In this document: piece after piece, positions 6,339 to 9,594 of the stretch | Layout: every line of letters starts with the position of its first letter | How positions within the stretch are numbered: position 1 is the first letter of the stretch | From: Rheinheimera sp. 4Y26 | Lineage (GTDB): Bacteria; Pseudomonadota; Gammaproteobacteria; Enterobacterales; Alteromonadaceae | DNA: 64,000 nt | Direction of reading: 5' to 3' | Assembly (NCBI RefSeq): GCF_025245835.1 | Contig: NZ_JAOBWS010000004.1 | Span: forward strand, 186,001 to 250,000 | Translations under genes and position numbers: made by a program | Notes under the pieces: generated by a model | Database searches by the model: none | Seen by the model: the letters and a program-made list of their open reading frames with translations, nothing else | Told to the model about the DNA's origin: nothing

Positions 6339-6418
6339 GGAATCTAACAGCGTTCAACTGGACTCAGACGCAGATCAGGCGTACGATAACTGTCAATTCA
6401 GTTTACAAAGATAATGTT

Positions 6419-6464: not shown

Positions 6465-6470
6465 TATAAT
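6465..6470 (+). promoter_or_regulatory. Candidate -10 element for the kinase/PqqD-like cassette
   Basis: A perfect TATAAT stands 47 bp upstream of the ATG at 6517. No good -35 is found at 16-18 bp. A TTGGCA (6432-6437) is 27 bp away, too far. The promoter may therefore need an activator or a non-standard sigma factor. Confidence 0.4.
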
Positions 6471-6516
6471 GGCATGAATTATGCTTGATTCAGTGCTGTT
6501 GTATCAGGAGGAAGTT

Positions 6517-7113
6517 ATGCAAGAGCAACCCGAAAACAAGTCAATCGAATCAACCGTTTCTCCGGTCTCTGCGCATGCCACAGGATCTGGCAAGTCGCGT
6601 CGCCAGTTTTTGACTAAAGCAACTGCAGGTTTAGTGATTGCAAGTCTGCCGGCGCGCTCAGTCTGGGCCAGTGGTGGCGGTGTTGCTCAGTCTATTGTTG
6701 CATCAGGTCATGGTTCCGACTTTGCAGGTGGTGATCCTATTGAGTTGTTATCACCAGGCTATTGGTCAAACCACGAGTTGCATCAGCATAAATACAATTT
6801 TTATAATATTTTCGGTGGTCGCGCCTTCACCAAGAGCGGTTTTCCATCTCTTAAAACCGGCCTGACTTTTGGTGATATTCTGGTTGGCGATCCTAAATTT
6901 AAAGGTTGTGGTAACTGTAACTTCCATATGGTCGGCATCTATCTGAACGCAATTAACCATGGTAAGTTTGGTATTAACTACCCTATCATTGGTTTTGGTC
7001 AGCCATTTGCGACCGCCAGTGACTTTGCCAAATATCTTTACAACAAAGCTTTGCTTGATCCAAATGGTGTTGGCAGCGAACTGAGTTCAATTATTGACAA
7101 TTACCACGCTTAA
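6517..7113 (+). CDS. Tat-signal secreted protein with GYWSNH motif; probable substrate of the adjacent modification genes
   Basis: A 198-residue protein of unknown function. Residues 1-26 are polar. SRRQFLTKATAG (27-38) is a twin-arginine motif followed by a hydrophobic stretch and a possible cleavage site at VWA (49-51). The mature part is Gly/Asn/aromatic-rich and contains LLSPGYWSNHE (77-87), resembling the SPGYWKNH motif of some secreted proteins, a CGNC pair (131-134) and a C-terminus of ELSSIIDNYHA. I chose ATG 6517 because AGGAGG stands 6-8 nt upstream; an in-frame ATG at 6481 lacks an SD. It is first in a tight four-gene run with a PqqD-like protein, an HprK-like kinase and a nucleotidyltransferase, which suggests that it is their substrate. 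That role is inference. Confidence 0.75.
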   Translation: MQEQPENKSIESTVSPVSAHATGSGKSRRQFLTKATAGLVIASLPARSVWASGGGVAQSIVASGHGSDFAGGDPIELLSPGYWSNHELHQHKYNFYNIFGGRAFTKSGFPSLKTGLTFGDILVGDPKFKGCGNCNFHMVGIYLNAINHGKFGINYPIIGFGQPFATASDFAKYLYNKALLDPNGVGSELSSIIDNYHA

Positions 7114-7129
7114 TCCTTAGTTGTCTGTA

Positions 7130-7369
7130 ATGACAGAGTGGTTGGGGTCAGCAGTCGTTGTTCATCATTTTGCCGATAATTCCGGCACTGTTTTTTTCCA
7201 TTTATACAGCGGCGAAACTTTAGCTTTAAGTTTGCCGCTTGTTGTTATTGCCCGGCAACTGCCAGATGCCAACTCCGAATTAAGACAAAATCCACTGGTT
7301 ATGCAGCGCCTGAAGCTGTTTCTGTCAGAAACGGCGTTGAATTCCCTGAGTACTGCCGATGACATTTGA
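7130..7369 (+). CDS. PqqD-like peptide chaperone (HPr-rel-A system type)
   Basis: A 79-residue protein resembling the PqqD family, whose winged-helix fold (RiPP recognition element) binds the leader of a peptide substrate and presents it to a modifying enzyme. Seen here are a beta-rich N-terminal half (AVVVHHFADNSGTVFFHLYSGETLAL) and a helical C-terminal half, as in PqqD. I recall this size and context as the PqqD-type member of the HPr-rel-A gene set. ATG 7130 is favoured over TTG 7121, which lies only 8 nt after the upstream stop. Its end overlaps the kinase gene by 11 nt. Similarity is weak enough that a profile search is needed for a firm call. Confidence 0.65.
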   Translation: MTEWLGSAVVVHHFADNSGTVFFHLYSGETLALSLPLVVIARQLPDANSELRQNPLVMQRLKLFLSETALNSLSTADDI

Positions 7370-8234
7370 CGTCAGATATCTGCATTTAGCGCCTTTTTGC
7401 TTTGAAATCCGCACCGATATCAATAAAGTTGCCAATAATTTGCAGCAAATTTATGGTGATTTGTTTTCCACAACCCCAGGGGTCCCCGATTATTATCTGA
7501 CCTTGCGTTCAGGCAGCGGGCTGCGTAAATACCTGCGGCCACAAGCGCGATTTCTCGCCGATCAGCAGGAACCCTTTAAGCCAATTGACATCAATAATGG
7601 TTTTGCCTTGCTGGAATGGGGCATGAACTGGTGTATTGCCACCTCGGAAATGCGTTTTGTGATAGTGCATGCAGCCGTGCTGGCCAAAGATGGCAAAGCG
7701 GTGTTGTTCCCGGCGCCGCCAGGTTCAGGTAAAAGTACCCTCACCGCCTGGCTGGCGTTTAACGGCTGGCGTTTATTGTCGGATGAAATGGCGCTGCTTA
7801 TTCCTGGCACCAATCAGGTGATCCCTTTTGTACGCCCTATTTGCCTGAAAAACCAATCGATTGATCTTGCCCGAAATTGGTTTCCACAAGCGCGGTTCTC
7901 GACAGTGGCTAAAAACACCCATAAAGGTGATGTGGTGCATTTATCTCCGCCGGCCCAAAGTTGGCAGCAAAATACTGAGCCTGCACAAGTGGTTGCCATT
8001 GTTTTCCCAAAATATCAAAAAGTGCAGCCACTTGAAGTAACAGCCTTAAACCAGGCCCAGGCCTTTATGGCGCTGGCGGAAAATGCCTTTAATTTTAGTC
8101 TTGCCGGTAGCGAAGGATTTCACACCATAGTACAGCTGGTAGAAAATTGTCAGAATTACGAAGTTACTTACGCTGATGTGGCAGAACTGGCGGATTTTTT
8201 AGAGCAGGATGTATTGCCTTATGCACATCCATAA
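7359..8234 (+). CDS. HprK-related kinase (HprK-rel-A type)
   Basis: A 291-residue protein like the catalytic domain of HPr kinase. It carries a P-loop FPAPPGSGKST (117-127), the preceding VHAAVL strand with His104, and WRLLSDEMALL (137-147), where SDE supplies the acidic metal ligand. The N-terminal ~90 residues are not HPr-kinase-like. No HPr gene is near, so the target is probably not HPr. Related kinases in lasso-peptide clusters phosphorylate a C-terminal serine of the peptide. Overlap with the PqqD-like gene (11 nt) and with the nucleotidyltransferase gene (at least 14 nt) implies translational coupling. The fold is secure; the substrate is inferred. Confidence 0.85.
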   Translation: MTFDVRYLHLAPFCFEIRTDINKVANNLQQIYGDLFSTTPGVPDYYLTLRSGSGLRKYLRPQARFLADQQEPFKPIDINNGFALLEWGMNWCIATSEMRFVIVHAAVLAKDGKAVLFPAPPGSGKSTLTAWLAFNGWRLLSDEMALLIPGTNQVIPFVRPICLKNQSIDLARNWFPQARFSTVAKNTHKGDVVHLSPPAQSWQQNTEPAQVVAIVFPKYQKVQPLEVTALNQAQAFMALAENAFNFSLAGSEGFHTIVQLVENCQNYEVTYADVAELADFLEQDVLPYAHP

Positions 8235-9339
8235 TCTGATTATTCAGCTGTTTTTGGGCAAAGTCTCTGGCCCAATCCCACTTGAGGATTGGGCGGACAT
8301 TGTACGCATCCTGCGTGACCAACAATGTCTGGCCCGTGTCGGCTGGCGTCTGCAACGATATGGGCTTGGCTCAACACTGCCCCCTTTTGTACAAAATCAT
8401 CTGAAAAATGCTGAGCTGATTGCACAAAAACAATACCATCAGGTGCAATACGAAGCCAAATTGCTGCAATCTTTGCTGCAACCTCTCACACAACACCTGC
8501 TGTTTTTAAAGGGCGCCGCCTATTCATTACAGGACAACGCAGATGTCGGCCGTGGCCGCACCTACAGTGACATTGACCTGTTGGTGGACAAACAAAGTTT
8601 GCCCCAGATCGAACGCGAACTGTGTTTGTATGGCTTTTTCGCCGAAGATCTCGATGAATATGACCAGAAATACTACCGTGAATGGTCACATGAAATTCCG
8701 CCACTGCGTCATGGCAGCCGCGGCACTTTGCTGGATGTGCACCATAATTTATTGCCACCTATGACAGGCAGAGCGCCGGATATTCAGCTGTTTTTCAGCC
8801 ATACCCAACAAAACAGTGCTGGTTATACCGTATTCAGCCCGGCGGCGATGTTGTTACACAGCGCTATTCACTTAATGCTCAGTGAAGAAATTAAACATGG
8901 TTTTCGCGATCTGACCGACTTGTATTTAATTATTGAGCAATATCAAAGCTCTGAGTTCTGGCAAGAGTTGCTTGAGCTTGCAATCCAGACTGGTTTTGCC
9001 GGCGAGCTATTCCTTGCACTGCGCTATAACCAAATAATTCTGTTGTTGCCAGTGCCTGAGCATGTGCTAACGAGTCTGCAGCCTTATAAGCCAGGCCGGT
9101 TGCGCATGCGTCTGCTCGATTTTATTTTTATGCACAAGTTAGTGCCGCAACATCCGGCTTTTGCCAGTAGCGGCGATACCCTGGCTGATTTTTTGTTATT
9201 GCTGCGCGGCCATTACCTGAAAATGCCGTTGTGGTTGTTGTTAAAGCATCTTGGCCGTAAAGCTTACAGACAAACACTCAGCGCCTTTTTTGGCAGTAGT
9301 GTCCTTGACAAGAACACCGACCAGCATAACAAAAAGTAA
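8221..9339 (+). CDS. Nucleotidyltransferase family protein (NTP_transf_5-like)
   Basis: A 372-residue protein with the signature of the uncharacterised nucleotidyltransferase family PF14907: LLFLKGAAY (about 93-101), then GRGRTYSDIDLLVD, where SDIDLLV carries the two metal-binding aspartates, and LLDVHHNLLPP further on. The C-terminal half is helical (HSAIHLMLSEEIKHGFRDLTDLYLII). In lasso-peptide clusters a relative is reported to attach sugars to a phosphorylated peptide. ATG 8221 is 10 nt after an AGGA; ATG 8209 is the alternative. Either start overlaps the kinase gene. It is the last gene before the thi promoter. Confidence 0.8.
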   Translation: MHIHNLIIQLFLGKVSGPIPLEDWADIVRILRDQQCLARVGWRLQRYGLGSTLPPFVQNHLKNAELIAQKQYHQVQYEAKLLQSLLQPLTQHLLFLKGAAYSLQDNADVGRGRTYSDIDLLVDKQSLPQIERELCLYGFFAEDLDEYDQKYYREWSHEIPPLRHGSRGTLLDVHHNLLPPMTGRAPDIQLFFSHTQQNSAGYTVFSPAAMLLHSAIHLMLSEEIKHGFRDLTDLYLIIEQYQSSEFWQELLELAIQTGFAGELFLALRYNQIILLLPVPEHVLTSLQPYKPGRLRMRLLDFIFMHKLVPQHPAFASSGDTLADFLLLLRGHYLKMPLWLLLKHLGRKAYRQTLSAFFGSSVLDKNTDQHNKK

Positions 9340-9376: not shown

Positions 9377-9384
9377 CAGCGCCA

Positions 9385-9470
9385 CTTGTCGGAGTGCCCA
9401 TTTGGGCTGAGACCGCGTAATGCGGGATCCGTTGAACCTGATCAGGCTAGAACCTGCGAAGGGAAACAAG
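9385..9470 (+). promoter_or_regulatory. TPP riboswitch (THI element)
   Basis: The thiamine pyrophosphate aptamer is clear. P1 strands CTTGT (9385-9389) and ACAAG (9466-9470) close it. Inside are CGGAGTGCC, GGGCTGAGA (pyrimidine pocket) and the pyrophosphate side AACCTGATCAGGCTAGAACC followed by GCGAAGGGA. It controls thiC and the downstream thi genes, lowering expression when TPP is plentiful. The 154-nt expression platform (9471-9624) shows no convincing intrinsic terminator. A CCTTG at 9497-9501 could compete for the 3' strand of P1. Translational or Rho-dependent control is therefore likely; this is inference. Confidence 0.95.
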
Positions 9471-9594
9471 GGTAATGTGCATTCATTTCAGAGTTGCCTT
9501 GGCTTTAAATAAAGTTTTTGGCACAGCTTTGTGCAGCGGCAGAGTTTTATCCACAGCCGTCATTACTCCAACTCACTCCAGATAAGCAATTTAA

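Follow-up and report, generated by a model that had tools for sequence, protein, structure and literature searches.

In the stretch of Rheinheimera sp. 4Y26 DNA analyzed here (64,000 nucleotides (nt) of contig NZ_JAOBWS010000004.1, hereafter the window), four open reading frames (ORFs) on the + strand, located between sbcB and thiC, form a compact candidate protein-modification cassette of the HPr-rel-A type. They encode, in order, a protein with a twin-arginine translocation (Tat) signal, a PqqD-like protein, an HprK-related kinase and a nucleotidyltransferase; the four had been described as neighbors in an earlier note made from the DNA letters, and their presence, strand and coordinates agree with it (Table 1). 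The Tat gene begins at ATG 6517, with AGGAGG just 5′ of it, and ends with the stop at 7113, giving a 198-aa product that carries SRRQFLTKA...ARSVWA; an alternative start at 6481 is also open, with 6517 favored by its better ribosome-binding site. The PqqD-like ORF, 16 nt past the Tat stop, runs from ATG 7130 (TTG 7121 is open too) to the stop at 7369 and overlaps the kinase ORF by 11 nt, while the nucleotidyltransferase ORF, if it begins at its first ATG, shares 26 nt with the kinase ORF. Between two congeneric copies of the Tat gene, the ratio of nonsynonymous to synonymous substitution rates (dN/dS) is ~0.08, which argues that the genes are real. Neither a B2 leader peptidase nor a macrolactam cyclase was found in the cassette or its immediate flanks, and no extra peptidase is present among the four genes.

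Table 1. Cassette genes and associated elements, with positions counted in the window.
Feature	Position	Strand	Details
PrsR-type enhancer motif TGTCAATTCAGTTTACA	6391..6407	+	one mismatch to TGTAAAN5TTTACA (17 nt)
Sigma-54 promoter-like site TGGCATGAATTATGC	6470..6484	+	starts 47 nt before ATG 6517
Tat-signal protein, proposed substrate	6517..7113	+	RR at residues 28-29; predicted cleavage at ~residue 51; GYWSNH at residues 81-86
Serine triad S59, S63, S67 (S-x3-S-x3-S), proposed phospho-acceptors	6691..6717	+	conservation in relatives
PqqD/RRE-like protein (HPr-rel-A PqqD), proposed leader-binding adaptor	7130..7369	+	79 aa
HprK-related kinase A	7359..8234	+	H104, P-loop GSGKST, SDE (D142, E143)
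PF14907 (NTP_transf_5) nucleotidyltransferase	8209..9339	+	KG at 101-102, D121-x-D123

The kinase is a clear member of HprK_rel_A (TIGR04352, 328.8 bits, cut-off 200), and its alignment conserves H104, the P-loop lysine K125 and the D142-E143 pair; the best solved relatives are HPr kinases, in which the histidine, P-loop and aspartate positions align. The nucleotidyltransferase belongs to PF14907 (136.7 bits, cut-off 31.2), with K101-G102 and D121-x-D123 kept in all 67 sequences of this enzyme. For the PqqD-like protein, the model TIGR04353, named 'HPr-rel-A system PqqD family peptide chaperone', matches 24 of 43 aligned proteins encoded at the same position, a set that includes the window's own. 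Its AlphaFold2 model comprises three strands followed by helices, and the closest PDB neighbors of this model are structures of TbiB1, a lasso-peptide recognition element of ribosomally synthesized and post-translationally modified peptide (RiPP) pathways, or RRE, solved with its leader (E 0.08). The TIGR04353 matches among its counterparts mark the 79-aa protein as being of the expected HPr-rel-A kind; the structural match is suggestive. Profile search thus bears out the proposal that the HPr-rel-A gene set is present, with TIGR04352 and PF14907 found in the window and TIGR04353 in relatives.

Conservation in the Tat-signal protein was counted in an alignment of 60 relatives with a mean column identity of 15%. 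The twin arginine is near-invariant (R28 in 59/60, R29 in 60/60) and appears as SRRQFLTK in the window protein; together with the TatC encoded in this genome (227.6 bits), this leader marks the protein as a predicted Tat substrate. Besides the start and the twin arginine, the most conserved feature is the serine triad, retained at S59 in 60/60, S63 in 60/60 and S67 in 58/60 relatives; N144 (55/60) is also among the nearly invariant positions. The S-x3-S-x3-S pattern occurs in 57 of the 60 proteins against 4.2 expected when the same 40 residues are shuffled, and S59 sits 5-9 residues past the predicted W/L-A/G cleavage point. The triad is also retained in four divergent Tat proteins from the same locus that have neither the GYW nor the LNA motif.

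The C-terminal region is modeled confidently (pLDDT, the predicted local distance difference test score, is ~90 across much of residues 80-198). The protein has no significant family match among the Pfam and NCBIfam models, PDB sequences gave no match in a profile search with the Tat alignment, and Foldseek found none for its model among PDB and viral models; the C-terminal domain therefore yields no functional clue. The earlier note had taken GYWxNH as the mark of this protein, and the motif is indeed present in the window; its universality did not hold, as GYW is missing from some cassette partners, and the serine triad is universal instead. GYWxNH was also rejected as a diagnostic motif on the ground that the domain bearing it is present, too, in large proteins that are apparently secreted and have no Tat leader. 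Such a related GYW domain is found in larger, apparently secreted proteins at L187:235-4290, L188:1446-2315 and L190:1214-2650, and no Pfam model matches the GYW domain of the cassette proteins.

The association of these genes was assessed in 80 loci from other species, gathered by kinase sequence alone, in which all ORFs were clustered by BLAST. The kinase is present in 80/80, the nucleotidyltransferase in 79/80 and a homologous Tat-signal protein, the third family of the clustering, in 73/80. The earlier note's proposal that the Tat protein is the substrate was to fall if relatives showed no co-occurrence of the genes, and it withstands this check, since a homolog goes with the kinase in most Beta- and Gammaproteobacteria loci. 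Of the 79 Tat ORFs, 78 lie on the kinase strand; 59 of the 79 are upstream of the kinase, 57 of these no more than 600 nt away, and the other 20 are downstream. The adaptor gene adjoins the Tat gene in most loci. Among the seven other loci, two encode divergent Tat-like proteins (L090, L111), and some of the rest are cut by contig ends.

In a separate, evenly drawn set of 369 gammaproteobacterial genomes, TIGR04352 exceeds its cut-off in 41. Using a profile built from 60 Tat proteins, strong matches (>80 bits) were found in 30 of these 41 genomes and in none of the 328 others (Fisher p ~3e-35, a value which, like the other p-value from this sample, overstates independence since the genomes are related, the pattern itself covering many families and genera); at E<0.001, matches occur in 37/41 and 13/328. 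The kinase-Tat association exceeds chance by a wide margin. At some kinase loci, two Tat-family proteins are encoded (L061, L063, L066, L072, L081, L095), which suggests that one enzyme set may serve two substrates. Further neighbors of the cassette, judged by eye, recur in 13-23 of the 80 loci (L078, L084, L100, L109 and others): trypsin-like proteases of one family, PrsK/PrsR-like genes and an exosortase-associated acyltransferase-like gene; the protease might process the product.

Among the genomes of the genus inspected, G000, G018, G012 and G010 have a window-type cassette after sbcB, and G005, G014, G007 and G003 have a divergent one, in which the Tat protein has no GYW, the PqqD-like ORF is less clear, and the kinase and nucleotidyltransferase are ~36-38% and 27-30% identical to those of the window. 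In genomes without a cassette, sbcB is usually followed by the lipoprotein-like gene that elsewhere comes after the cassette. Since in these genomes the site either has the whole cassette or lacks it altogether, the cassette appears to be gained and lost as a unit. In the window, the flanks encode endonuclease I, SbcB (PF08411), ThiC and a ThiD-ThiE fusion, and a thiamine pyrophosphate (TPP) riboswitch lies immediately past the cassette at 9380-9482, upstream of thiC.

PEP-CTERM genes are preceded by a two-part element in which motif 1, a 17-nt motif ending in TTTACA, is followed after a spacer of 62.8 +/- 10.6 nt by a sigma-54 site; PrsR was put forward as the activator (Haft et al. 2006, PMC1569441). 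Upstream of the window's Tat gene, the spacer between the enhancer motif and the sigma-54 site is 62 nt, and the congener L040 has a sigma-54-like site at the same position (TGGCACAAAATATGC). The pattern TGTAAAN5TTTACA is our own rendering of motif 1, picked after the window had been viewed; the window therefore does not count as independent evidence for it. The independent tests are the other loci and a random-stretch control: the motif pair occurs in 38 of the 73 Tat upstream regions, where stretches drawn at random from these loci would give 0.95. Across the pair-bearing upstream regions, the spacer is 64.5 +/- 12.2 nt. The genome encodes PrsR (TIGR02915, 702 bits against a cut-off of 502.6) and an exosortase, and exosortases occur in 38 of the 41 kinase genomes versus 89 of the 328 others (p ~2e-16). 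Roughly one in four of the 80 loci has PrsK- or PrsR-like genes, recognized from sequence without a profile, next to the cassette. Its upstream element and the PrsR of its genome place the cassette in the PrsR/sigma-54 PEP-CTERM regulon, a setting that the earlier note does not mention. Scanning the region for plain sigma-70 promoters gave no useful information. When the genome was searched with TTTACA-N50..75-TGGCA-N7-TGC, it returned seven sites including that of the cassette, and a reversed control pattern returned none; the other sites (G000:C11:464117-464188 and five more) could mark further PrsR-regulated genes, and some may fall in coding sequence.

A sister system was noticed at L173:3275-5678 (- strand) and at L174-L178, combining an HprK-like kinase with one to three short Tat-like peptides (~56-91 aa) of the pattern SRRxFLKxTAYVAPAILTLxAxPALA...GS. 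The two sister kinases scanned score 69-85 bits to TIGR04352, below its cut-off, and L173 also encodes a PqqD protein (PF05402). Five genomes with sub-cut-off HprK-like kinases encode short peptides bearing SRRxFLKKTAYVAPAILTLxAxPALA...GS, whose YVAPAI segment agrees with the YxxPx[ILV] consensus of the RREs of lasso peptides and of linear polyphosphorylated peptides (LPP), a Bacillota system published in May 2026 (PMC13381572). These look like small RiPP precursors with a combined Tat/RRE leader, and because YVAPAI fits that consensus, they lend support to leader recognition within a Tat-like signal.

The gene set and its co-occurrence, together with the triad, the regulatory element and the link to exosortase, all computed here, lead us to infer a route of adaptor binding, phosphorylation at a defined site, second modification and export: the locus is probably a protein-modification cassette of the HPr-rel-A type that acts on the adjoining Tat-signal protein. 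In the cytoplasm, the PqqD/RRE-like protein would bind the Tat leader and offer the segment just beyond it to the HprK-like kinase, which would phosphorylate at least one serine of the triad, proposed as the kinase site because its position is where the LPP kinase acts (PMC13381572). The PF14907 enzyme would then put a sugar or nucleotidyl group on the phosphoserine. The folded, modified protein would be exported by Tat and its leader cut, leaving the modified serines near the new N-terminus. Expression would be under PrsK/PrsR-sigma-54, jointly with the exosortase/PEP-CTERM exopolysaccharide programme, and because this control is shared, the product is probably a cell-surface or matrix component. 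A broader formulation, which we put forward only tentatively, is that Proteobacteria have a general system whose RRE adaptor reads the Tat signal as a leader, letting entire folded proteins be phosphorylated and glycosylated or nucleotidylated on the N-terminal triad before export, possibly yielding a phosphodiester link between protein and exopolysaccharide.

Several observations weigh against this proposal. The window PqqD-like protein matches none of the Pfam, NCBIfam, TIGR04353 and RRE models, and its structural match is weak (E 0.08), the high-probability match spanning 33 columns. A P-x-[ILVM] pattern, potentially resembling the known RRE motif, lies in the h-region of 33 of the 60 Tat leaders, while the window leader and 27 of the 60 relatives have no such proline; as it is missing there, the recognition motif in the window leader must differ. 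Thirteen genomes with a Tat-family match at E<0.001 have no above-cut-off TIGR04352, and 4 of the 41 kinase genomes have no Tat-family match, among which G317 has its kinase at the edge of a contig, while in G151 the kinase is adjoined by a divergent Tat-signal protein. The conserved serines could serve another role, and the second modification step is uncertain because its LPP counterpart LppN had no detectable activity in a heterologous host (PMC13381572).

Three other explanations were weighed. The enzymes might modify another target, such as a carbohydrate, a lipid carrier or an unlinked peptide, with the Tat protein a co-regulated neighbor that may bind the finished product; unrelated exopolysaccharide genes could be gathered by PrsR regulation and by exosortase linkage, and loci of the Hydrogenophilales/Burkholderiales type have the Tat gene downstream with its own promoter. 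We consider this unlikely, given that strong Tat-family matches without the kinase occur in 0/328 genomes, that the triad, the most conserved part of the protein, is placed where LPP kinases act (PMC13381572), that an adaptor resembling an RRE implies a peptide substrate with a leader, and that, at one chromosomal site, divergence of the cassette enzymes goes along with divergence of the adjoining Tat protein. A RiPP-like pathway, in which the Tat protein is a precursor cut further and the modified N-terminal segment alone is active, would agree with an N-terminus that is conserved and a C-terminus that varies, a pattern also seen in LPP precursors, and with the related system of 56-87-residue Tat-like peptides adjoining HprK-like kinases; the purifying selection on the Tat protein, its confidently predicted folded C-terminal region, the related domain in large secreted proteins and the lack of an extra peptidase in the cassette make it improbable. 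Classical Tat leaders can have dedicated chaperones, and an adaptor gene next to the Tat substrate gene in most loci would suit a PqqD-like protein that acts as a proofreading chaperone resembling the redox enzyme maturation proteins (REMP-like), with the kinase and nucleotidyltransferase acting on the chaperone or on Tat targeting and leaving no stable substrate modification. This would leave unexplained both the invariant serine triad past the cleavage site and the PF14907 enzyme, and the lasso and LPP precedents phosphorylate the precursor; we rate it as slightly more improbable still. Modification of the adjoining Tat protein remains the reading we favor.

HPr-rel-A is already known as a named gene set, its kinase, PqqD partner and nucleotidyltransferase having names in public annotation; a description of its substrate was not found in the literature searched. 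Searches on the HPr-rel-A set, its substrate, a link to exosortase/PEP-CTERM and twin-arginine RiPP leaders returned no earlier description, subscription papers and preprints aside, and the substrate family, the triad and the regulon link were not found in the searchable libraries and papers. What the present data add is a family of candidate substrates, residues that may carry the modification, a regulator and the physiological setting. If the proposal is true, RRE-guided modification reaches beyond small peptides to exported proteins, and such modification is tied to the Tat pathway and set in an exosortase/exopolysaccharide programme of environmental bacteria.

Among known systems, HPr-rel-A (TIGR04352 HprK_rel_A, TIGR04353 PqqD_rel_X) is matched by the clear kinase member, the PqqD partner family and the PF14907 neighbor; the NCBIfam names cover the kinase and PqqD partner, whereas the Tat family, the triad and the PrsR element lie outside any model found. 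With the PEP-CTERM/exosortase regulon (PrsK/PrsR; PMC1569441), the cassette shares the two-part sigma-54 element, its spacing and a strong exosortase co-occurrence, but its product has a Tat signal and no visible PEP-CTERM sorting tail. The tailoring enzymes of paeninodin and pseudomycoidin (PadeK, ThcoK, PsmK, PsmN) likewise pair an HprK-like kinase with a nucleotidyltransferase homolog: PadeK and PsmK phosphorylate serine, and PsmN adds a hexose to the phosphoserine in pseudomycoidin (PMC9266682). The cassette differs in having neither leader peptidase nor macrolactam cyclase, and the lasso kinases target a C-terminal serine. The order of phosphorylation before decoration, drawn in the earlier note from the lasso analogy, is in line with this literature (PMC9266682). 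LPP, published since, is the closer analogue (PMC13381572).

In the Paenibacillus LPP system, an RRE and the HprK-like kinase LppK phosphorylate core Ser3 beside the leader with no cyclase involved, and the precursors have conserved N-termini and variable C-termini; the LPP paper mentions neither Proteobacteria nor Tat (PMC13381572). Both systems bring together a discrete RRE (of weaker identity here), an HprK-like kinase and an NTP transferase without a cyclase, and both have substrates with a conserved N-terminus and variable C-terminus, the phosphorylated serine of LPP lying close to the cleavage site. Between SbcB and ThiC, themselves not peptidases, there is no SipW-like signal peptidase and no MsbA-like transporter, and the motif YxxPxVLxHQxIxFETxxS is missing from the window leader, a partial P-x-[ILVM] being present in 33/60 relatives; on peptidase, transporter and leader motif, membership in LPP fails, and an LPP-like mode of working is what the analogy suggests. 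Here, moreover, the leader is a Tat signal, the substrate a folded protein of ~200 aa from Proteobacteria, and the conserved serines are three where LPP has one. On the best reading, the system would be a proteobacterial, whole-protein counterpart of Bacillota LPP.

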